Below are positions 248-63,864 of a DNA stretch of 64,000 nucleotides, piece by piece. Within the stretch, counting starts at the first letter, position 1. Each line of letters begins with the position of its first letter. Position numbers and translations under genes: made by a program. A model generated the notes under the pieces. That model had not been told where the DNA came from. It did no database searches and saw only the letters and a program-made list of their open reading frames with translations. The stretch covers positions 15,107,997 through 15,171,996 of the forward strand of contig CP099843.1 of NCBI GenBank assembly GCA_030062745.1, read 5' to 3'. This stretch comes from Capitulum mitella. Lineage: Eukaryota > Arthropoda > Thecostraca > Pollicipedomorpha > Pollicipedidae.

Positions 248-3200
248 CTGATCACCTGCGGCGCCAGGTTCACCTGCAGGCCGGCGGGGTGCAGGGTCGG
301 GTCGTACAGCGGGTTCATGTACTCGCGCAGGTGCTGGGCAGTGTAGCCCCACAGCGAGTAGGTTCGCTCGGACAGCCTGCCGCGCAGCCGGAGACGGACG
401 AGTCACGGGAAGCCAGGTCCGGGGCGGGGGGACGCGGGGCCGGCTCGGCTGGCAATCGAGAGGGGGAGCGGGAAGAGGTACCGGCCGACGGGTCGCAATA
501 CTACCGGAATTCGTCTACATTGCAGCGGTGTTGGTTGCTTATGCAAGTTAAATGACGTCCACTGATGGGACATGGGGTTCGGGCTTCCTGTGGTCTGTTC
601 GCGAACACGCCACGGAAACACTAAACAAACGAGACAGCGGCCATACTCCATCCAGCCGGCTTCCCAGGAACACAATCTGATGGAACATGCGTGTTGGTAA
701 CAGTATTTCGCTGGCCGTTTCTCGGCGATTATCCCGCTGATCGCAATTTACGTAAAAGCCAACCGCCAAGTGCAAACACCGCCAAAGTGCTTAAAACCCC
801 AAATAAATCACATCGCAGTCGTGACGACCACAAAAATACGAGATAAAAATCTGCTCGTAGTCGGACGCAAAGATGAAAGGCTTGCAAAATTTCACGAATC
901 TAACGAACTCCAGGACAAGAAGGCAAAAACCGACAGTGACCATAGGAAAAAAGCAGCTCTCACATACCAAAAAAAACGTTCTGAACCACGAACGCGTCGG
1001 TCACGCTAAAGCCACTCACACCAAGCGCAAAACATCAATCACAAAACGGCTGCGTCTTGACCATCTCCCAGACGAGTTCCCCAGCCCGGACCCACCGCTG
1101 CTGGCCCGGCTCGGAGGCTCCCACAGGGCTGCGGCACGCTGACCTGAGGTCCTGCCTGTCCTTGTGACAGTTGCCGATGAACGTGCCGAACTGGCATGAG
1201 AACACGTGGTCGTGCAGCGTCAGCAGGTAGCGCTCGTTGAACTGAAATGCCTGGGGCTGCAGCTGGGTCAGCTGCCACACCGCATCTGCGGCGCAAGGAC
1301 GGCAAGCGGTCATTGACGAGGACGTAACCACGTCCGTATTACTGGCGCTGCTGGGAGCAATTTTGGGCTCATTCTTTCATGTACTGTCATCGGCCTAATG
1401 TTCAAGTTCGGGATTACTTGTGCTGCATGGGGAACGTCAAAACCATTACTGGCTCCACTCCTTTTCAGCCACGACGGCACACGCTCAGACCGCCAACAGA
1501 CCGCTGACCAGAGGGACAGACAGCTCTGCCTAACACGGCAGCTGTAAATGGAAGAGGCGAGTCCGTGTCCACTGCACACCTGGCAACGTGCAGGGATAGG
1601 CCGACCGCCCGCAATCGATATGCCAATCGATATGCAAAGGGTCCGGCGAAATACAACCATGGACAGGAAAAGTTCGAAAGATGCCTAAAACGCATGGCAA
1701 GTCAAAAACATTATATGTTAAAGGACAGGAAAAAGTTGTTCCTGAATGTTTTCACGATACAAATGTAAATGTAGTGAGGTGGCGAAATATTGCCCATTCC
1801 CTCCGACCCGTATACAACCCAAGCCACGCAGCTAACCGACCCACACATTCGAGAAAAAGTGGTGAATCGAGAGAACAGCCACACAGAAAAAAATGCGCGG
1901 ACAATGCGAGGTAAAGAAACAACCTAAACGATCATTCCCGGCGCAGGGACAAAGCAGTTCAGATTGTCGGGTAAAAATGCGCCCAGACGACGCAAATAAC
2001 CAGCGGATTAAAACATATCAGCATCATTCACGATCTGCGAGAAAAAGGATCCCATGCCACTACAATCTCACGACACAGACACTGGGGCAAGCCCAAACAT
2101 TCTCACCGACAAACTGTGTGAAGATGGGCGAAATCTCCTTTGGGTCCACCTGAATGAAACCACAGCGATCTGTGAACTTGTGTCCGTGCGCCAACCAGCA
2201 CTTCTCGATGAGTGCCTGCAGAACAGAGGCATAAGTATAAGCAGACAGGGTGGTTGTTTCTTCTGAGACGCTTGTTACGTCGAACTCACTGCTACAAACT
2301 CTCAAGTCTGTGGAAGAGGGCAGGGAAATTAATGACAAAATTATCGCCTGATGGCCAGAAATGCCCAACAATCACCAATTTAATGAATAAACATGGCAGA
2401 CGTACTAAAAATGGTGGAAACAGAAAGCTTCATGAGCGCCTATCGCCCGTGCGTGGTGTTCAGAGGCCACCTCAGCCGCGCCTTAGCCGCCTCCGAGCCG
2501 GCAGATACGCAAGATGAGATGGGACGGCCACGCGATGCTGCCGCGCGTCCGACCTTGAAGCTATGCAGGGCGCAGCACGTGGGTCACGAAGGTATCTTCC
2601 CCCCCCCCAGCCTCTGATCTGGAATTTCGGCACACAAGCCTCTGACCTGGGAGCCGTGCAGTGTACAGTAGTAGAGCACTCTGACCTGGAAGCCGTGCAG
2701 TCTGCGGCATGGCTTAGTGTACTGTGACCTGGAAGCCGTGCAGTGTGCGGTAATGGGGTACCCCCTAACCTGGAAGCCGTGCAGTGTGCGGTGGTGCAGT
2801 ACCCCTGACCTGGAAGCCGTGCAGTGTGCGGTAGTAGGGATCCAGCAGGAGCTCGGCCAGAGCGCAAGTCTGCGAGGTGCGGTCCCAGCCGTCGCTGCAG
2901 TGCACCAGCACGGTGACGCCCTCCTGCACTGAGGTCGCCACGAACTGGGCCGCCTCCAGTGTGGAGCGCACGTGACGCAGCCAGCCGCTCGACTCCAAGC
3001 CGGAGAGGAACGTCGACATGGCCGAGGTCTTGCTCTCGCACGCTGCCGGAGAGCACGGCCGCGGCGTCACCGGAAGCGGACACATCGGCCCGGCCGGCCA
3101 TCGACCGCCACCAGTTCAGAGAAACGGTCCGGATTTGAGCGATGTCACGAGAGGCGCCATTCACCACAACAAAGCGGGAATGACTGTTGTTCAGATGGAA

Positions 3201-6200
3201 CAGGCTGAAGTGCATCAAACCTGGTCAGCTCAATTTACCTTCTGGGAACCATGCTCTCCATGACACATCTAACTTCACCTTACGTCACCAGGTGAATTTG
3301 TAAAATAGCGCACAAAACTTATAGATAGGCCTTAAATATCATGAAACTACTATCACTGCAGAAAAAAGTCCACGATCATGTAAAAACACTATGGAATAGG
3401 TTCATGCTACGCACGTTTCTCATTCCAGAAATAAAGTTGCGAACAAAAGAGCAACAATGAAATCAATACATGTGGAGACAACGCCGAAAATCTGTCAGGT
3501 ACACTGCAGTCTGTCTACAAAAAAACAACGCTCAGTTGCCACGTCCAACACTAAAAGGAAACTAAATTTTAGAAATAAGGAAAACAACAGAGTACCGTAT
3601 ACAAGCGGAACTCACTTTCGACTAGTTTACACAAGCTATTGCGCATGACGTGGATGTTTTCTATACCGAAGAAGTAGAATTTCATGTTCTGGTAGAAGCT
3701 CTCATTTTCATAGCCCTTTCCCGACGCCCTGTTTGCCATGGCATTTATCTGAAAACACACACAAACATGTAAAGCATAGGCTGACTTTACTAAAAAAAAC
3801 AAAGAAGACCTTCGTGTAAGAGTCCAGACACACGCAGCGATGTTAAAGGTTTTACATCGAGAACGTTTTGGGAGTATTTAAACAGCAAGTTGTTGGAAAT
3901 TGCAAGTAATCATTAAATGGGAAATGCGAACAACGCATAATATGCCTAACAAAGAACGGTATGATGATCCGTAGCTGCTGACCAAATTGTGCATCAACAA
4001 CAGTAGAATGTCCGGAAAACCTATAAAGAAGCCCAACCGAAGTCTGACCTCAGCTGGCCTTGCCATTACGCCACAGCGGACCTTAAAGACGCGGAACGCA
4101 GCTGATGGAAAAGCACGGACGCGAGAACGCCCTCACTTCGCCTGAGCACGGCTCACCTTGGGTCGCGTGTCGACGACATACATGAGCTTGTCGGACGGGT
4201 TTGTGGCGCGCACCAGGGCCAGCATCTGCTCGTCCTCCAGACAGCGCGCCTTGAATCCGGACAGCGGCTGGCTGCACCGGCAGATGGTCGCCTGAAGGAC
4301 GGCCGGGGTGGTCACACACGCTCGGACACTGGCTCACCGCACCCAGCTACTTGTCCGTGCTGCGCACGAGCACAGCAGACCACTACGAGAAAAGCTCACG
4401 TGACACAATGGAAGACGATGTATTATCTTGATGTTCTGGTTGCCTGAATACCTTAATGAAAACTGCAAATTAATCCCAAAACGACAGCAGTGCAAATGTG
4501 ATCTGAATCCCCATAAAGCAGGTTCGACACCACGTCTGACGCAGATCCACCTTGCTTCTCCTCTCAATTAAAACCACCTTAACAAGGCCACCAGTCCAGG
4601 ACTGCCGAGCCGGGCGACAGCCACCTGCGCGCGTTCCACACACGTCCGGCGCACGGGCGCCGCCCTGTCGCCGCGCCGCACCTGGTTGGAGTGGCGGTAG
4701 CTGAGGACCGGCAGCCTGCCCTTGCTCCGGAAGCGGGCGCACCCGAGCAGGACGGCAGTGCTGGCGGCGGCCGGCACGCACAGCAGCGGCGGGTACGTGT
4801 CGCACACGTCGTACTCGGCGTTGATGTCGGTCACCACCCAGGCCGAGTTGGGCACGCCCATCCGCCTGCCGGCCGGCGACGACCGTCACACGAGCACATC
4901 CGCACGCCGCGGAGACGGCGGGCCGATCACGGGACGGCTAACGAGGTCAGGCTCCGATAAAATTGGAACAGTGGGCGTCCCATCACCGACTGATGTCGCC
5001 ACTGGGAATTTCCATTAAGCCATTCCAATCCAATCCAATCCAACCCAACGCGAGCAAGGCTGGATCAAAGCCACAGATTCGGTCTCTGGCAACACTCGTG
5101 ACCGGCTACATGGTTGGTTCTGGGTTGTCCTCCTCCTCCTCCCCATCCCCCCCCCGCCCCGTTCCAGGCAAGGTGGGCTCGAATCGCTTCGACGTTCGCT
5201 ACTTCCCTGAGGATCAGCCGGTGACTTGCCAGAAGAGAGCAACTGGTTATTCACGAGCGTGTCGTAAACGGTGGCACGTTCAACTTTCAACAAAATGAGA
5301 ACCGTCAACTTGCACATGCACGACAGTGTGCCGGGCTTACAGTCCGTACAATAAGCAGATCTCAACAGAGATTCCGACGTCATACCCCTTGAAAACAGCC
5401 GGATAAAATGTATTACAATACTAGGGGAACTCACCGCAAACGAGCTCACCCGACCGCGTGACCCTCATTCCCAGGAGAAGGAAACCTCATCCTAGGCAAG
5501 ACAGTCTATTCGGTACTGGGTTTACAGACACCTTCGACAACCAACGACTTCGAGTCACTGCTATCATGGTGGTTTTCGCGAGGGACACGGACATGACGCT
5601 ATGAGCAGGGTTCCAGCCGCGGACCTGTCGATCAGTGGTTAGTCTTGATCACTGCGCCGTAACGTCACCCACCAGGTGCTTCAAACACTCCCAAACCTGG
5701 CAGCGCAGGACCGTCGGAGACAGCCTTCCTCCTGCTCTCCTTTCCCGAAATGCAAACCTGTCATCTCTTCGCATTAACGGCCGCAAAACATGGCTCTGGT
5801 ATTCGTACGATGATCCGCTCGTCCCGAACTCCAAGCGAAGCGAAAACCTGTTTTATCTTGTTTCTTGAACAAAAGGATCAATCCCGTTCTCCTCAGTCTT
5901 GAATGAGTTTCGTTTTTTCCTTTCGTGTTATCTCATCAGTCCCATAGCGACTCACTAAAGCCCATCACCGTATCCGATGACCTGCCCAGCCCTGTATGCA
6001 GCACATCACTTCCCCCCCCGTCGGCTGCCCCCGCAATAAGCTGCGTTACTACCCGGAGCGTGCTTTTCATGACTGTTTCATCTCCCAGCATAGTATGTCT
6101 TATCCCTCTGCAGCAAATAGGGCATGCCACAATTCCCTTGTGATGGCCTGTCCAAGACTGGCACCCCCCCCCCCCCAACCCCTCACGTCCGGTCCATTGC

Positions 6201-11125: not shown

Positions 11126-11240
11126 TAGGTTAGATTATGTCAGGTCAGGCCAGGTCAGGTCAGGTCAGGTTAGGTTAGGTTAGACTAGATCAGATTAGGT
11201 CAGGTTACATCAGGTTATGCTAGGTTGATTTAGGCTAGGT
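11126..11240. repeat. Degenerate telomere-like array (TTAGG/TCAGG)n
   Basis: About 20 pentamers of AGGTC and AGGTT, running opposite to the 10400-10490 array. TCAGG and TTAGG variants are blocked: TCAGG first, then TTAGG, then mixed. Confidence 0.85.
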
Positions 11241-17744: not shown

Positions 17745-19752
17745 CGTCGCGGCGTCTCACATTCCGCACGTGATACGGCACCCCGTCCACATCTACCACA
17801 CAATCGGACACAAGCCGAGTGATCACCCCGGGAAGGGATCGTTTGTCGCACCTGGTTGTCCCGCGAACGCGCACCCACACCGTGTCGCCAACGCGCCAGC
17901 CGTCGCGTGCTAGCACAACAGTCGGCACCGCTCGTGTAGAATCCACCGGCAAGTCTCGGAAGACGTACCGGTAGAGCCCAACACACGGTGCGCTGTCGCT
18001 CGCACCACGTGGCGTCGCGTTATAACGATGTACCGCCTCCTGGACACCGCATCCGGTCCGAGCTATAATTACCTTAACAGTTCTGTGATTTCGCTCCACT
18101 ATGCCGTTCCCGCCGGCCTCGTACGCGGCGCGATAATGAATCGCCACCTGCCACTTGGAAGCCAACACCTGCACGGCACGGGAGCGGAATTCGCTGCCAT
18201 TGTCAAGGATCAGTTCCGCAGGGGCACCTCGTTCCCAGAAGATCTGCTCCAGCTCGCGCACGACTTCCTCGCTCGTGTTCCTACGAAGTTGTCGCCACAA
18301 CACGAACCGCGTGGGACCGCAGTCGATCACAGACAAGTACAAGCTCGCGCCCACGTGTACCACATCAGCGGCTAGGCGGGCCCACGGCGTCTCGACACCG
18401 AGATGGCCATGCCGCCACCGCACGGGAGCGGGGTCGATGGACCGGCAAACGTCGCAGCCCTGCACAACCGCCCGAGCATCCTCTCGACGAACGTTTTCCG
18501 GCAGCTCCCGCCGCGCATACCACAGAGTTTTTCGCACACCAGGGTGACCGACCTGATGGTGCACTGCCGCAACGTGTGCTCTCAGCTCGACTTGCCCCGG
18601 AGACGTCGGCGCCGCGGCTGCAACCACACGGTCACCGCGCGTCAACCATTTTTGCGGAACACGCGTGAGCCTGTCAGCGAGGTTCATCTCCGATCGAACC
18701 AGCTCAACCGCTACACTCAAGCCGTACTCATCCGTCAGTTGCGCGATCAAGCTAAGTCGTCGCCGAATCAACATTTCCGACTGCGCTTTGGTTCGCAGCC
18801 TTGCCCTCCCTGTGAGCAAGTCCTGGAGCCACTTGTGCACAGCTGCAGAGTCGACCCGCAGTGACAGCTCGTTCGCACCCCATGCGATCGCGAGATTCAT
18901 TCCACGAATGACGGCGTCCAACTCGGCCATGTTTATGTGATTCATCGAATCATGCTCCGACCGCAGCCAACAGGCGTCTTCCACGATGCTCTCATCGCCA
19001 GTTGTGAGCACAACGCCCGTCGCGATCGAGCTCGCATCAGTCCACACAACCAGCGATCTACCGCGAACCTCCCATTGACCGCGCGCCGGGTCCTCAGCGC
19101 GAGCCCGCTCCCACAGTTCGCCAACGATCGACACCACGCCCGGATCATCGATCACGTCATCCCATCCGTGGGTAACCTCGTTAGCTCGCCGCTTCAGCCA
19201 TGCCACTGCCGGTCGCAACCATCCGGCCACCGGTAAATGTCCCACCAACGAGCCAGTCCACTTGAACACCGTCCGACGCGTCATGACCGGCGGCGGCGAC
19301 GGAACCTCGCCGTCGCGCGCCCACGTCAGCACACCGTCCTGCGTGCGCACGACTCGTAGACCCAGAGCACGCACACTGCCCGTCGCCACTCGCTCGGGAG
19401 GCTTACACTCCAGCCCGAACTTGGCGAAGTGACCAATCACCTCTTCCGCGCTCACAATCGCCTCGTTCACGAGCAGGTCGTCGACGTACGCGAGTACACC
19501 GCGGCGCATCCTTTCGTCCTGGTCCAGGACTGTCCCCACCACCGCTTTCATGATCAGTGGCGCCACGTTCAGTCCGAAACCAAGCCTTGTCAGGCAATGG
19601 AGGCGACCGTCCACTTCCACAGTCTGGTATGGCCACAACGACCTGTCCATGTGAAGCTGCAAATACGCGCTCTTCAGATCCACAACGGCGATACGGTCCC
19701 CATGCCGGCGCCAGTTGCGAAGCTGTTCCGCACACATCTGCCTCCACCGCAT
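17662..19752 (-). pseudogene. Retrotransposon pol: RT palm, RNase H and integrase
   Basis: 696 codons. The region opens inside RT and carries VVDLKSAYLQL, GFGLNVAP and the YVDD active site (about residues 89-92). RNase H begins near WTDASS. The integrase has an HHCC-type zinc finger (HHQVGH...CDVC), then VDVVH-like AADVV, LILDNGSEF and GIVERNHR, giving the D,D,E triad. A basic tail follows. The frame differs from the gag part, so this open stretch has no natural start; its first Met is incidental. Confidence 0.88.
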
Positions 19753-22365: not shown

Positions 22366-22424
22366 TTTTAGTTTAGGTTAGTTTAGTCTAGTTTAGTTCA
22401 GTTTAGGTCAGTTTAGTTTAGGTT
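22366..22424. repeat. Degenerate TTTAGG/TTTAG repeat
   Basis: About 11 units of GTTTAG with TTAGGT and TCAGT variants, telomere-like but weaker than the 10.4 kb array. It abuts the left edge of a long minisatellite. Confidence 0.6.
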
Positions 22425-31759: not shown

Positions 31760-33115
31760 TTACTTCTACTCCAATATTGTTAGCGACATTATTGCTCCGA
31801 CAATGCTGCTAATGACAGAACTGCAAACGACGCCACTGCTAACGACAGTAGTTCTACATGACACTACTGCTAATGACACTTCTATTACCGACAGTTCTTC
31901 TGCACGACATCACTGGTACACGACACTACTGGTACCGGTGTTGCTGCTCCCAAAACTACTCCTACAGACAGCACTACTAAGCGCCACGACTGCTACAGAC
32001 ACTTCTGCTACCGACTGCACTGCTACACGACATTCCTAGTACACGACACTATTGCTACGGACACTGCTGGTACCGACAGTATTGCTACCGACAGTAATGC
32101 TACCGACATTACTGCTGCGCGGCGTTACTGCTACCGACACTACTGCTGTCCGACAATACTGCTACCCACAGCGCCACAGACACTACACTTCTGCTACTGG
32201 CACTACTACTATACGACTTCACTGCTACTGAGTGCCCGTACGCGACGCCACTGTTAACTACAAAACTGCTAAAGGCGAAAAACTGCTATTGTTGCCATGG
32301 GTTTGGTTTATTCCTCATATCTTCCGAACAGACTGCGGCAGATACATGAAATTTTCAGTAATTTTAAATGGATACCCACGTTACATGACGTGAAAAATGA
32401 GCACCCAGGTCAATCTGGGTCATGTTAGGTTAGGCGAGTTTAGGTTAGGTTAGGTTTTTACTAATGCTGCTAGAGTTACCAGCTAAGGGTCCGGGCGTGC
32501 AAATAACAGCAATGGCGTCAGCTGTTTTTCGCGACAGCACCTGCTTTAGGAGGTGCCGTTTAACAGTAATACCATTATGAGCGGTGTCGCAGTGTCGTCC
32601 TTCAGCAGTACTGTCGTTGACAGTACTGAAAGTACAGTACTGTTGTTAGCGCCATTGTCGTTCGCCATATTGTCGCTTAGTAGTATCGTCGCTAGCAGTA
32701 ATGTTGTTGGCAGTAGTGTTGTTAGCAGCATTGTCGTTTAGCAGTAGCGTCGTTAGCAATAGTGATGGTAGCAGTATTGTCATTTAACAGTAGTGTCGTT
32801 AGTAGTAGTATCCTTTAGCGGCAGCGCAGGTAGTAGTGGTGTCGTTCAGCAGTGGTATCGTAAGCAGTAGCGTCCTTTAGCAGCGGTGTCGTTACCACTG
32901 CTGTCATTAACAGTAATGTCGTTAGCAATAGCTTCGCGTAACGATGATGTTGTTAGCAGCAGTGTCGTGTAGAAGCACCGTCGTTAGAAGCACTGTCACA
33001 TAGCAGTGCTGCCGTTAGAACTAGTGGCGCGGATCTGTACTGTCGTTAGAAATAGTGTCGTGTAGGAGAACTGTCGACAGCAGTATTGTCGCGTAGCAGT
33101 AATGTAGTTTAGCAA
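31760..33115. mobile_element. Foldback-like palindrome 1 with 15-bp repeat arms
   Basis: Left arm (about 31760-32275) is built of a degenerate 15-mer, GCTAACGACACTACT. Right arm (about 32570-33115) is built of its complement, AGTAGTGTCGTTAGC. The 300 bp spacer contains a telomere-like core. Long inverted repeats made of short tandem units are the hallmark of Foldback elements. No ORF and no clear target duplication are visible. Confidence 0.7.
32423..32458. repeat. Telomere-like TTAGG core
   Basis: GTTAGGTTAGG followed by TTTAGGTTAGGTTAGG in the spacer of the 31.8-33.1 kb palindrome. Confidence 0.85.
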
Positions 33116-33236
33116 TAATGGCAGCAGGAATAATATGGAACTGTACCATGAAAACCATAACAGCTATTGCAATGGGTGTTAAATGACATTCATAACGTTG
33201 TTCAAATAAGCCATTTTAGTTGACTTACCCCTTTAA

Positions 33237-34627: not shown

Positions 34628-35405
34628 AGGACAAAAGTCCGTCGAGGGTAAAAGTTCAGCGAGGACAAAAGTTCGTCTAGGACAAAAGCTCGTCTTGCAG
34701 AAGTTCGTCTAGGGCAAGGTTGGTCTATGGCAAAAGGTTGTCTGGGACAAAAGTTCTTCTAGCAGCAGTTGGTCCAGGACATCAGATCGTATAAGGCAAA
34801 AGCTCGTATGGGGCAAAAGTTTGTCTAGGACAAAAGTCTGTCATGCAGAAGTTTGTCTAGAACAAGAGTTCGTCAGAGGCATAAGTTCGCCAAAGACAAG
34901 TTCGTCCCGCTAATGGAAAAGGTTCGTACTGCAAAAGGTTGGTATGAAAAGGTTTGTAGGAAAAAGGTTCGTAAGGGAAAACGTTCGCAAGGAAAAAGGC
35001 TCACAACCAAAGGTTCGTACATTTTAGGTTGGTATCGGAATAGTTTGGTATCGGAAAAGGGACGGATAAGATAGTAACCTAACCTAACCTTACCTTACTT
35101 TTTGCCCTAGACGAACCTTTGTCCGCAAAGAATTTCTGTAAGACGAACTTTTGTCCTCGACGAACTCTTGCCCCAGACGAACTTATGTCCTATGCGAACT
35201 TTTGTTGGACGAACTTTTGTCCTAGACGAACCTTTGTCCTATACGAACTTTAGCGAGACGAACTTTTGTCCCAGACAAGCTTTTCTCCTGGACGACCTTT
35301 GTCCATACGAACTTTCGCGAGACGAAGTTTTGCCCTAGACGAACTTTTGTCGCTACGTACCATTACCCGACGAACTATTGTCCTACGAGCCTTAGTCCGA
35401 ATAAC
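34628..35405. mobile_element. Foldback-like palindrome 2 with 17-bp repeat arms
   Basis: Left arm (34628-35065) repeats GACAAAAGTTCGTCTAG with drift. Right arm (35100-35405) repeats the exact complement, CTAGACGAACTTTTGTC. The centre is only about 30 bases and is telomere-like. The arms drift more toward the centre on the left side. Confidence 0.75.
35074..35092. repeat. Telomere-like CCTAA core
   Basis: Three CCTAA units at the exact centre of palindrome 2. Confidence 0.85.
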
Positions 35406-51260: not shown

Positions 51261-53640
51261 CATTGCAGCTTAAACTGGAGCTATATTCTTAGTTTATTGA
51301 GAACTGTCAAAAATGGTATGCAGTGGTGAGCATGAAGATGATTGCTCCCTTACATTTTATTATGGTGTGCATTGTCTGTATTGCTCAAGTCCTTCAGTCT
51401 TTTGAAGACATAATGTGTTTAGATTCAGGGGATAACAGCATGCAAACATAACACTTATGATAGAAAAGCAAATCTAGGAAGAAGGACATGAGTATAATAA
51501 ACAGCAGGGAATGGTGGGATCTGATGGGATGTTTTGTTTTGTGAATGTCTATTGTTTTTGTGTATTGCAAGTTTTGTCTGTAATGTTAAACTTCTTTTGC
51601 TAATATCTGGGTCTGTTTAGAGTATAAATGTAATACTTTCCACAGAAATGAAAAGAAAATGGAATGAGAGAATGTGTGAGATAGCAAACAGTATGCAGAA
51701 AAGGCTAATGTATAAAAGTATGTATAGGGACAGAGTAGGTAGGTGCGAAAGTTAAGTTAAGTTGTATGATGCATTTGCTTGGGACTTCAAAAACAAATAG
51801 GCAAGGCTATCCATGAATCAAGTAAAGCATTGAAAAGATCTTGTATACATACTTGATGCTTTAACACAGTTGCAACATCATTGTCAATAATAATGATGGA
51901 TAGGAGGGGAGTAGCTAACTAATGTTGCTGTCATTCAAAAAAGATATTCTTGTTTGCAATACCCCATATTTATGTACATTGGTCTTAGCATCAGTTTTAT
52001 AAGATTGAGATTAAGACTGTAACAGGTAATAGGGAAGGAGAAGAATGTTGAGCATGAAAAAATTGGATTATCTCAGTCATCTCAAAATTGCTTAGGCAAG
52101 CAGATTTACAAGAAAAATTTAAAGTACCTCAATTATCTCAAAATTGCTAATGCAAATGGCTTTAATTTTATCTTAAGTTACTTTGAAAACATACATGGAT
52201 CTGCACAGTCTTACATAAACAAAGAAGCTGCATGAATATCCTGCATGGAAATCCTTAGTGCTATTAATTGCTAATTCAGTTGGGATGGTGTCCTGTTAGA
52301 TAATGGTTTTAGTTAAGATAATGGTCTCCTGGTCCTTGGTAAGACCACTATGAGTGACTTCTGTTATTCACTATTTGGCTAGCAGGTCTGTTGGTAACCA
52401 GACGGAAGAGCCATGCTGCCTACCATGCGGTTTTTTTTTTTGTATATTCCTGATGGTACATTCAGTTTCTGCCACAACATGAGCCACTGCTGTAAAGATG
52501 GTCTATGGCTGAAACATCAAGTCTCATGTTAAGATGTATCTTTTATGACTAGACTCAAAAGTCTCATGGCTTGAAGAAGATTGTTTATTTTCCCCAAGGC
52601 CCAGGAGCCTATTAATGCCATGATTGAACTCAAAAGTCTCATGGCTTGAAGAAGATTGTTTATTTTCCCCAAGGCCCAGGAGCCTATTAAGGCCATGATT
52701 GAGGTCTGTCTAGCCCCAGCTGTGATTCCAGACATCATCATTATGAATCATGCAGATCAGATATAGAGAATAGCATGTACTATGAATAATGCAGCAGTCC
52801 AGATGAGTTGTAGAAACTCAGGAGCAGTGCCTTGCAGGGAGTATATAAAGGTGCATTTGGAATAAAAATTTCATGTTAACCTGGTTGCAGTCATTGTGGT
52901 CTGCATTTGTTGCATGTTAACATGTCATCTGTAATCAGTAAATCCGTAATTTTAGGTATAATTAAGGCATGTAGTAATGTGCAGACATCTGTCAGGGTGA
53001 TGGCAGCTAGGCATTGTCTGAAAAGTCTGAAATTAGGGCATTCATTGATGGGACAAGTGTCAGGAAATTTTGCACACTGAGGCAACTGTAAGTTACTTAG
53101 CATTAATGTGAAGTTCTGGGGAATGTATAAATACCTCATATTTACAAAAAAATGTAAAAACTATATCTTCCAGCATAGGAGTGTGGCACTGTGTATAAGG
53201 CACTGCAACCTGTTGCACACCGTCCATGATATGATTTAGGTGTTCAGCACTACCTGGCTAAGTGAGTGGGTTCTTTTGTTGACTGTTTGTTTCCAAAGTA
53301 AAATTATTGAGTATGTTTTGTAAACATACATGTTTGTAGATTTGTAACTTGTACCTTGCATTGGACTGAACCTTGTAGTAAGATGTTTTGTAATCCAAAA
53401 TGAATTTGAAACTAACTGCTATCTTAGATTAAGCGGGACAGCCTCATCAGCTTTATCATACTGTTGGTTTAATCCATTGGATGGTGAAGTTTAGTATTTT
53501 GCTCCATACTTTAATATTGAAGTGCCATGTGTTTATTGATATTGTGACAGTCACAGAACAAAATATAACTATTGTGCAATGTGAAGGGTTATTTCATGTT
53601 GTTATGGCATTAGTTGTTACTTCAGATGTATCTGTGCATG
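51260..53640. other. CpG-depleted block without a recognised gene
   Basis: About 2.4 kb nearly free of CG, AT-rich, with a 75-bp tandem duplication inside. No convincing exon. By comparison with the blocks at PTRH2 and ATOX1 it may be a transcribed region. Confidence 0.5.
52553..52702. repeat. Exact-length 75-bp tandem duplication
   Basis: Two neighbouring copies starting at ACTCAAAAGTCTCATGGC (52553 and 52628), with only one or two differences. The minus-strand frame stays open and repeats a 25-residue peptide containing LIGSWALGKINNLLQAM, but no family is recognised. Confidence 0.9.
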
Positions 53641-60200: not shown

Positions 60201-63200
60201 CCGTCTAGCCAACTCAGCCGATAATATTCGTCTCCAGCTCATTGGAAATCTACCACCGACTAGCTAGAATGGCTGCCGGGTCCTGTGGTGGTGTGTTAGC
60301 CGATGCAATGTGTCGTGGTTGCTCATTTTCACGGAATGGCATTTCGGTTTCGACCTTTACACGAACACTGTTTTAGATCCCCTCCGAGAGCCTTGCATGT
60401 GTGGCTTATAAGTCCTCGTGTGCTCGAGATAGAGCCTGGAGCACTATTCCTGACTCCCTGGTGGAGGAGGTCATGAACTGGCAACTGCTCATGAGTCACT
60501 GGACCACGCTGCACGGTGGAACCTCGCTTTACCGTACAACTGGGACCCGTGCGTTCTTACGTGCCGCAGATCGCACATTGTAGAGTCCTTTACGGGGACT
60601 TTGATTGTCGACGTTTAGTTCGTGTTCATCTTCACCACTTCAGAGCGCACGCAAAGGCCACCGCAAATCCAAACGCGGTATAAGCTTATTTTAAAAACGG
60701 CTGAATGTCTTGAAGAGAGGAGGGTTGCCATCAGAGTCCGCACTGATTGGAACTGTTTCCATGCATCAACTTGTTTTGCCCGGCCGCTTTATCGTTGGTG
60801 CTGACTGATGTTTTTGGTGACGTGTAACTCCACGTCGCCGACGTTCCGTAACTGGTTGGCCCTGTCAGCCTCTGTCCCAATAGCGGACCCGGTCTGGGAC
60901 GGGAACCCACTGTCGGTTACGCACCGGTTGCTCTCGCTCGCTCTGTATCCACGTTGCTGAGGTGTTGACATTTGGCGTAATTGCCGTGCTTTGGTCGATG
61001 TTTGTCACCTGACTGACGAATCCTTTTGGTCCCGGCAGCGGGGCCACGCTCTCGATGAACCCGGCGTGTCCAGTCCAGTCGCCGGAGCTGTACCAGCTGC
61101 AGCAGTGTGTCCAGGTCAGTCAGGAAGTTGTACCAGTTGCAGCAGTGTGTACAGATTAGTCAGGGAGCTGCGCCAACTGCAACATGTGTCCAGGTCAGTC
61201 AGGGAGCTGCGCCAGCTGCAGCGGTGCGTACAGGTCAGTCAGGGAGCTGTACCAGCTGCGGTAGTGCGTGCAGATCAGGAAGCTATGCCAACTGCAGCAG
61301 TGTGTACAGGTCAGTCAGGGAGCTGTACCAGCTGCAGTAATGTGTGCAGGTCAGGAAGCTGTGCCAGCTGCAGCAGTGTGTACAGGTCATTGAGGGAACT
61401 GTACCAGCTGAAGCATTGTGTCCGGTTTAGTCAGAGTACCGTGCCAACATCAGCACTGTCTTTAGGAGGCCCTACTAGCTGAAACGATGGCCGGTTTATT
61501 TGGTTGCTTCTGTCTCTTCGTCAGATAATGTTGGACTTGGCAATTTACTGTTGTGCTGCCGCGCCGCCGTCGGTTGAATATGCCCAGGAAGTGCTTGGAA
61601 GCATTGCCATGAATGAAAGAGCTGACGGCGTTCCATTTAGTGAATGCGAGCCAGCCGTGCCCTGACCCGCTGTCTGCCGCTCCGTCACCGTTTGACCGGG
61701 AGACCGCCGTCCGTGGAGACGTGGTTCGGCCGCGGTTGGACGGTCCGCTCAGCTGACGCTCTTCTCCGCCGTGCCGCCAGGAGGCCGTGCACCGGGAGCA
61801 GGCCGTGGAAAACAAGCTGGCCACCCTGCAGCGACTGATGGACGGCGTCCAGGCGGCCACCAACAGCAGCTGGAAGGCGCTCATCGACGAGGACCGCCTG
61901 CTGACCCGGCTCGAGATCCTCGAGGGACAGCACGCCCTTTACTCAAAGGTCGGCCGGAGGCGGCGGCGGCGGCGTCGGCGGCGTGGGCCGTTGGCAGTGG
62001 TTCGTGTTTTGATGTGAGATGTCTGGTGCTGTGGGCTGGGCTGTAGCTGGGTCAGTGGCAATTTGAACTCCGCGACGCGTGTCCAAGAGTCATGTCGACA
62101 TCATTTTACCGCGTCAGTCTTGGCTGCTGTACATCAGAACTAACGCCACCGTCACATCCTCAGCCGTGTGGTCTTTGGACGCTTTGGTTGCCATCTGCAG
62201 GATTTGTCTGTGTCTGCGACGTGCTTGATGTGTTAATGTGAAAAGTGACTGTGCAGTATTCAGTGATTTTTTCTTCGTTTTTTTAGAACTTTCCCGAGGA
62301 CAAACTGCGGGAAGAGATAGCCCGACTCCAGGAAGATAAAAACACGTACCAGAACGTGGCTAAGGAAAGCCTCAAGAAGGTTCTGCAGGAGAAGCTAGAA
62401 GCCGTCCGAAAGTTACAAGAAGTAGAAAGGTACGCTGCCAGCGTCACCGGTGTGGTCAGTGAAAGGAATAGCTGCAGTAACAGGCGATCATTCGCGTGGT
62501 GTCTCTTCGACTTTATGCACGTTGTAATCCATCTGTTTGGTCCTTGAGACCGCGATGGAAGCGGCTGGTTTGTTGTTTCGTCGGGAGTCGGAGTGTCAGC
62601 CTGTCTCGGGAGGCGGCGCTGCGGAGGAGTCTGACGGCGGCGGACGGCTGCGCGCAGGTCGCTGTCGGCGGCCGAGGACGAGTGTCGATGTCAGACGGAA
62701 CTGCGCGAGGCGGCCGCCAGGGAGCTGGCCGAGCTGGCCGTCAAGTACGAGGCCAAGCTGGCCGCCGCCGCCGAACTGGAGGCCAAGGTCAAGGTCGGTG
62801 CCGCTCCCGTACACTGCTGGCTGAAGGGTGGTGGTCATTGTGAAAGAGGTGAATTGTGAAAGAAATGAAGCTGACGTCACGGAAAGGACTGGGCAGGAGC
62901 CACTGTCGAGTTGAGGCACGATTAATTTCGCCGTCATCGCTAGCGAGTTGAGGATGGTGGTTCTGGCCTAATGTTAACATCTGTCAAGAGAGGGTTGTGG
63001 GGTTGAGAGCAGTGCCAGGGCCGATGCTGCGGTAGGCAGAAGTGCGTGTTGAGCGGATGGTGCCAGTCTGGATCAGTAAAGGTCCGGCATGGCGCCGTCC
63101 CGTACCTCGGTAGCAGCGCGCTCCGTCGTGCAAGTTGTGACGCCGCCCTGTGGCGCCGTCAGGAGCTGGAGGAGGAGCAGGCGGCCGCCGAGGAGCGCTG

Positions 63201-63864
63201 GGAGGCGGAGCGGGCCCGCGCCGAGGCGCGCTCGGCGCAGCAGCGCAGCGAGGAGGCGCAGCAGCGCGCCCGGCTGGAGGGCCTCCAGGCCGAGAGCGAC
63301 TTCACCAAGCAGCAGCTGGTGGCGCTGCGTCAGAAACTGCAGAGCAAGGCGGCCGGTGAGCGCCGGGAGCTGGTGTGCCCACGCCTCGGAGCCGGAACAG
63401 CCGGGACGTCACGTGCGGCATGGGCGCGGCCGGCCCCCAGGGCCTTAAGCTGTGGATGCAGGGCCGCTTGAGAATACGTCGTCTCTCTGACAGAAAGAAA
63501 TGCTTTTCATGGTTTCGGTTGTTGTAGCGCTATGTTATAAAAGCACGAATGATTTGGCGGTATGCTTGCGGGCGCTGTCAGTGTTCGGAATTGCTACAGA
63601 CTGTGGGCCAGCACCATGTGTGTCGGTGTCTGTGTGCATTACCCGCCGGCCGGTGGACTTGAACGCCCCGCTGTCCCCCCCCCCCCCCGCCGGCCGGTGA
63701 CGCCCTCCGTTGCCGCCCTGCAGAGGTGACACCCAACGGCGACATCTCGCTGGAGTCGGGCGGCATGCAGCAGACCGAGCTGGAGCTGGAGAGCGTTCGC
63801 CGCCAGCTCAGCTCGGCAGAGAGCCAGCTCACCAGCGCCACACAGACGATCGGCAAGCTCAAGG
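57206..63864 (+). CDS. SLMAP: SLMAP, FHA-domain STRIPAK subunit (10 coding exons, 3' part off window)
   Basis: By family, SLMAP is a tail-anchored protein. Its FHA domain binds phosphorylated MST1/2 (Hippo) and recruits the STRIPAK PP2A complex that silences Hippo signalling. Exons: 57206-57346, 58121-58258, 58671-58818, 59338-59404, 61039-61114, 61781-61948, 62287-62429, 62658-62793, 63163-63355, 63724-63864; phases agree throughout, giving about 450 residues. [10 protein letters not shown] leads into the FHA domain (residues about 30-140) with GRSVAR (Arg61), SRNHALLWF and SSNGTFVN. The [16 protein letters not shown] strand follows. Then long coiled coil: [39 protein letters not shown]..., SLSAAEDEC, up to GKLK. 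The start codon directly follows a TAG, but Met at 57281 is an alternative. The tail anchor is not in the window. Confidence 0.95.
59405..59406 (+). other. SLMAP: GC splice donor of SLMAP intron 4
   Basis: The frame of exon 5 ([10 protein letters not shown]) requires exon 4 to end at 59404 in phase 2. The bases there are CCCAG/GCGAGT, a GC-AG intron. The nearest GT, at 59409, would leave the wrong phase. Confidence 0.65.
61085..61465 (+). repeat. Minisatellite copied from SLMAP exon 5 end plus its splice donor
   Basis: Ten copies of a 36-40 bp unit. The word GTACC/GCGCC/GTGCC starts at 61090, 61130, 61170, 61209, 61249, 61285, 61325, 61361, 61401 and 61441. The first copy is the exon end itself ([10 protein letters not shown], exon end 61114). 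Each unit is about 30 bases of exon plus CAGGTCAGTCAG donor. CAG/GT is kept in copies 1, 3, 4, 6, 7 and 8; copies 2 and 5 have CAGAT. Reading through meets TAG in copy 2. Confidence 0.93.

Follow-up and report, generated by a model that had tools for sequence, protein, structure and literature searches.

Mirage-like minisatellite arrays across 5' splice sites of a myotubularin-related gene and other genes in the barnacle Capitulum mitella

Tandem repeats running across exon–intron boundaries are known from amphioxus as 'mirages'. There they are reported to occur at both boundary types and to leave regular splicing undisturbed; they are described for Adh3 and the globin genes BflGb6 and BflGb9, with similar repeats reported in TnC and PGBD5 (PMC3087553, PMC3902484). 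Length variation is a further mirage feature. Judged from sequence, the structures that we describe in a myotubularin-related gene (MTMR) and in a second gene are mirages in anatomy, in an arthropod, with regular splicing presumed to proceed from copy 1. As in the amphioxus accounts, many tandem copies lie in the intron with AG/GT signals, but the systems differ in host (a cephalochordate, where the name was coined and which is not a structural criterion, versus an arthropod), in the boundaries involved (both types in amphioxus, only 5' or donor boundaries in the present sample), and in unit size (10–72 bp in Adh3 and ~150–160 bp in the globins, versus 23–41 bp here). An earlier note on this DNA knew of no named family of this type and thus missed the mirages, which already carry that name in amphioxus (PMC3087553). 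For barnacles, no title or abstract in the literature searched reports mirages, which does not prove their absence.

Ordinary intronic minisatellites have a similar period and divergence, whereas here the first unit lies partly in a coding exon. The AGGT model of intron gain, as set out in PMC3443670, likewise involves tandem copying of an AGGT segment, but at the locus studied here an existing intron was enlarged and no new intron was made.

The MTMR array lies on the minus strand of the window, that is, the whole 64-kb stretch of DNA analysed. Its features are as follows, with slashes marking the exon–intron junction or its counterpart in a copy.

2810..3042, minus strand: MTMR exon encoding the catalytic loop HCSDGWDRT and ending in ...LLDPYYRTLHGFQ (Pfam PF06602 188–269, translation, splice sites read)
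2808..2809, minus strand: GT of copy 1, taken to be the authentic donor (frame and Pfam continuity with the exon at 2215)
2642..2837, minus strand: tandem array, period ~40–41 bp, ~5 copies, the first unit holding at least 22 and up to ~35 exon bases (TRF, unit alignment)
2768..2769, minus strand: GT of copy 2, CCAG/GTTAG (offset +40)
2727..2728, minus strand: GT of copy 3, CCAG/GTCAC (offset +81)
2684..2685, minus strand: GT of copy 4, CCAG/GTCAG (offset +124)
2645..2646, minus strand: GT of copy 5, CCAG/GTCAG (offset +163)
2108..2215, minus strand: next MTMR exon, starting ALIEK, after an intron at 2216–2809 of 594 bp (Pfam 267–307)

The earlier note had described an MTMR exon encoding the catalytic loop whose end, donor included, is repeated into the intron with GT in copies 1 to 5, and both its coordinates and this anatomy were confirmed. 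The exon ends at 2810 on the minus strand as ...YYRTLHGFQ/GTCAG, the first donor GT being 2809–2808, and its tail (at least 22 exon bases) recurs, donor included, at ~40-bp intervals in the intron of 594 bp, so that, as in mirages, the first repeat unit straddles the exon–intron junction. Copies 1–5 all carry an intact CCAG/GT donor at spacings of 40, 41, 43 and 39 bases, and a sixth, partial copy reads CCAG/AT; TRF reports 4.7 copies of period ~41 at 2642–2837. The gene is of the MTMR6/8 type, its best solved-structure matches being MTMR6 and MTMR8 (with a query one residue off the window). The Pfam Myotub-related domain (PF06602) is matched at 188–269 in the catalytic-loop exon and then at 267–307 in the next exon, and because it runs on across the 594-bp intron, splicing from copy 1 would be in frame. 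Use of the donors at +81, +124 or +163 would lead to a stop, and use of that at +40 to a frame shift.

The repeated AGGT proto-splice sites recall the intron-gain model as outlined in PMC3443670, and the MTMR intron could itself have been born by tandem duplication of an AGGT-containing exon segment. We find this hardly conceivable. The TRF array stops more than 400 bases short of the acceptor in the 594-bp intron, and a C6 MTMR paralogue (L075) has an intron at the identical position, YRTIRGFE/gtgag, without repeats; the MTMR intron is therefore older than the array, and the shared, repeat-free position rules out intron gain by tandem duplication. None of 20 sampled donors of MTMR-family paralogues (280 bp of intron each) has an array.

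A second, unrelated gene of the window, which from the appearance of its sequence we take to be SLMAP, bears out the earlier note's claim of another exon-plus-donor expansion.

61040..61114, plus strand: SLMAP-like exon, its frame continuing into EAVHREQ... (reading frame)
61084..61423, plus strand: second donor-spanning array, 40-bp unit, ~8.7 copies, the unit being –31 to +9 of donor 61115 (TRF)

The anatomy of this array matches that in MTMR, with five further CAG/GT sites and AT where GT is expected in copies 2 and 5. All five downstream donors tested here lead to a stop; pooled with MTMR, eight of the nine downstream donors examined lead to a stop and one to a frame shift. Five other segments of the window, namely FHA-like, Atox1-like and RT-like pieces and two exons of the SLMAP-like gene, had no match in Pfam, and these names are presumed from sequence appearance only.

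The window holds further repeats. One 17-bp unit (AGGACAAAAGTTCGTCT and its reverse complement) occupies 34628–34999 and 35100–35351 in opposite orientations, an arrangement reminiscent of mobile-element arms, and 15-bp-unit arrays at 31784–32186 and 32635–33117, with consensus units that are nearly reverse complements, form a second inverted pair. At 52553–52702 a 75-bp segment is tandemly duplicated with 98% matches, indicating recent duplication, and degenerate pentamer arrays of GGTCA/GTCAG type and TTTAG type lie at 11126–11217 and 22367–22424. An open frame at 19261–19578 on the minus strand resembles a reverse transcriptase fragment, a name that we presume from its appearance and for which Pfam gave no match.

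Selection might maintain the extra donors for a function, either as decoys or as alternative 5' splice sites, for example yielding stop-containing isoforms that lower MTMR output. MTMR copies 2–5 do all retain CAGGT (12/12 core cells), and within the MTMR intronic copies more bases are conserved in the exon-derived part than in the intron-derived part (84/88 versus 61/80, p=0.0005, a split chosen after the alignment was seen). Across the five arrays pooled, however, the AG/GT core matches the consensus no more often than the other columns do (84/99 versus 1115/1314 cells; in the myosin array described below, one donor was scored per 45-bp double unit), and against selection also stand the two AT copies in the SLMAP-like gene and the array-free donors of the 20 sampled MTMR-family paralogues. 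Splice-site bases in the copies thus change neither slower nor faster than others, giving no hint that extra donors are selected for or against, and we regard a function for them as very unlikely. The unequal conservation in MTMR is not what plain neutral decay predicts. It was not repeated in the SLMAP-like gene (p=0.71) or in the kinesin array (p=1), and L002, a further array described below, showed the opposite direction (p=0.028). Insertions (11 in kinesin, four in MTMR) all fall in the intron-derived part, with none in the exon-derived part.

An assembly artefact, in which a repeat was expanded or collapsed, is extremely improbable: neighbouring copies have diverged at many sites and vary in length, and so are not exact assembly repeats, and the window arrays are short (~200 and 340 bp).

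Donor-spanning arrays recur elsewhere in the assembly (477 Mb, 16 contigs). Three more were found outside the window, in different genes, two of them in a sample of 112 donors drawn, blind to repeats, from exons of the myosin head, kinesin motor and myotubularin families in Pfam. A myosin exon at C2:10684129 (CCGTCCAG/GTGGGCAG) is followed by ~17 copies of 23 bp with donor CCAG/GTGGG; at C3:976365, 38-bp units follow a kinesin exon (CCGTACAG/GTCAGTG). The third, L002 (555–824; CAGTACG/GTAAGTAATGC, 36-bp unit, donor ACG/GTAAG), was found through a search with CAGGTCAG and hence is not an unbiased case. The first sample took myosin rows 86/86 and kinesin rows 63/129, and its 90 exon matches yielded 72 donors along with 79 acceptors (81 in the TRF coverage count) after dropping those with less than 300 bp of flank, a donor score of 1.5 or below or an acceptor score of 0 or below, matches at domain ends, duplicates, and introns shorter than ~440 bp. 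The second added 39 more kinesin rows and 20/32 MTMR rows, with 40 of 109 candidate donor stretches used; these 40 donors passed no score filter, and ~9 score 1.5 or below and are possibly misplaced.

For the 72 donors, each examined over 400 bp of intron, exon-tail repeats lay downstream at least once in 3/72 and at least twice in 2/72, while the other 40, made up of 20 myotubularin and 20 kinesin donors examined over 280 bp, had none. Foreign exon-tail queries matched in just one of 1410 trials, which puts the real arrays far beyond chance similarity. Intron-internal queries gave at least one match in 12/288 and at least two in 9/288, some of these coming from the arrays already counted. At acceptors, exon-end repeats occurred at least once in 2/79 and at least twice in 1/79, both weak and ~60–120 bases upstream of the acceptor.

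Other sampled loci showed repeats or unusual exon arrangements. In the C7:7006710 region (L068), a kinesin exon is flanked by two different minisatellites (1376–1492 and 1707–1931), one stopping 13 bases before the acceptor and the other beginning 11 bases past the donor. In the C16:5448734 region (L024, 1333–1489), a weak-donor myosin exon (HMM 379–436), possibly a decaying alternative exon, is followed by a 45-bp array resembling the donor region. The myosin loci on C14, C15 and C16 have several exons per single HMM stretch (about 377–440), which together with the 16 chromosome-sized contigs points to a crustacean, probably a barnacle. Chitin_bind_4 marks the genome as that of an arthropod: of 627 candidates 150 were scored, and all 150 passed the cut-off.

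From the two cases in the window, the earlier note had proposed a genome-wide process. The recurrence in myosin, kinesin and L002 agrees with that proposal, but specificity for donors was not established by coverage, by a seed model (P=0.10) or by octamer counts. TRF arrays cover 2/72 donors from –15 to +10, compared with 3–4/72 at +20 to +200 in the intron and 1/72 at +250 and +300, and cover 0/72 in the exon at –25 to –80 of donors. At acceptors, coverage is 0/81 from –80 to +10 and 1–3/81 deeper in the intron. Arrays in the sample therefore cross some donors and no acceptor, reaching at most ~25 bases into the exon; at least two arrays elsewhere do lie in coding-looking sequence (window 63168–63232; C1:14896276 region 3867–4017).

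In the seed model, each array starts as one randomly placed unit, and 21 arrays with summed periods of 774 in 160,447 bases give a straddling probability of 0.0048 per site. Under this model, two arrays were observed at the 112 donors versus 0.54 expected (P=0.10; ratio 3.7, 95% CI 0.45–13.4), the 72-donor subset, with 0.35 expected, gave P=0.048, and the 81 acceptors had none versus 0.39 expected. In the window alone, two donor-spanning arrays compare with 0.11–0.13 expected from its own array density (P ~0.006–0.008), a figure that assumes an estimated 17–20 donors in a window chosen because arrays showed there. The ratio of 3.7, the 72-donor subset and the window figure lean towards a donor-specific process, in which tandem duplication would begin with raised frequency at 5' splice sites, owing for instance to transcription, R-loops, U1 binding or CAGGTCAG as a slip-prone word. 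Against it, coverage at donors does not exceed that in intron interiors, and none of the 40 additional donors has repeats. There is no clear evidence of a process aimed at donors, where arrays are about as frequent as in intron interiors and no enrichment is established, although a moderate donor bias (ratio 3.7, 95% CI 0.45–13) is possible.

Octamer counts bear on the same explanation. We counted places with three donor-like octamers in tandem at gaps of 20–48 bases, a count dominated by long arrays. Raw places exceeded those of one-base controls both for CAGGTCAG (2424 versus 1229 for CAGGACAG) and for CAGGTGAG (1147 versus 345 for CAGGAGAG), as a donor-specific process would have it, and the four reversed patterns gave 337, 94, 826 and 386 places (337 for reversed CAGGTCAG, 94 for reversed CAGGTGAG). 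Distinct C1 arrays, counted by eye among the matches listed and thus weak evidence in either direction, numbered 15 for CAGGTCAG versus eight for CAGGACAG in the first 15.8 Mb, and 14 for CAGGTGAG versus eight for CAGGAGAG in the first 43.7 Mb. Single copies outside arrays in 284 kb stood at 30:16 (CAGGTCAG:CAGGACAG) and 19:11 (CAGGTGAG:CAGGAGAG). Because the array ratios track these single-copy ratios, the octamers give no clear donor effect; the one-base controls, single-copy abundance and the counting of distinct arrays mostly remove the enrichment suggested by raw counts.

The earlier note had also suggested CAGGTCAG as a seed. It is no general one, since the myosin donor is CCAG/GTGGG and the L002 donor ACG/GTAAG, but GTCAG donors make up three of the five donor-spanning arrays versus 9/112 sampled donors, so that a mild GTCAG bias among such arrays is possible and counts in favour of a donor-specific process. 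Taking both sides together, we think that process unlikely. A broader version is distinctly doubtful in our judgement: tandem duplication would start several-fold more often at 5' splice sites than at other positions in introns, perhaps via co-transcriptional donor structures or the slip-prone CAGGTCAG, and in some genes the exon copy would also re-template the intronic copies, as the MTMR conservation hints.

The MTMR array is likely an intronic minisatellite with mirage anatomy that began as a tandem duplication lying by chance across the donor and was tolerated. Introns in this genome are rich in minisatellites, and the donor-spanning arrays share their period range and divergence. After that first duplication, splicing probably stayed on copy 1; with splicing on copy 1, later copies would be intronic and therefore free to expand and decay, presumably growing by slippage or unequal exchange. 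The donor edge may simply be no barrier to arrays, and the extra donors would need no function.

With these data, exon-boundary minisatellites of the mirage type, described in lancelets, are extended to a crustacean. Wherever minisatellites abound in introns, such structures may be no more than an unremarkable by-product. Perhaps ~2% of introns carry such an array (2/112 donors), an estimate with a wide range that comes from two cases and three gene families. Mirage introns could serve as natural tests of how the spliceosome chooses a donor among near-identical neighbours, and may be a source from which new exons or isoforms arise.
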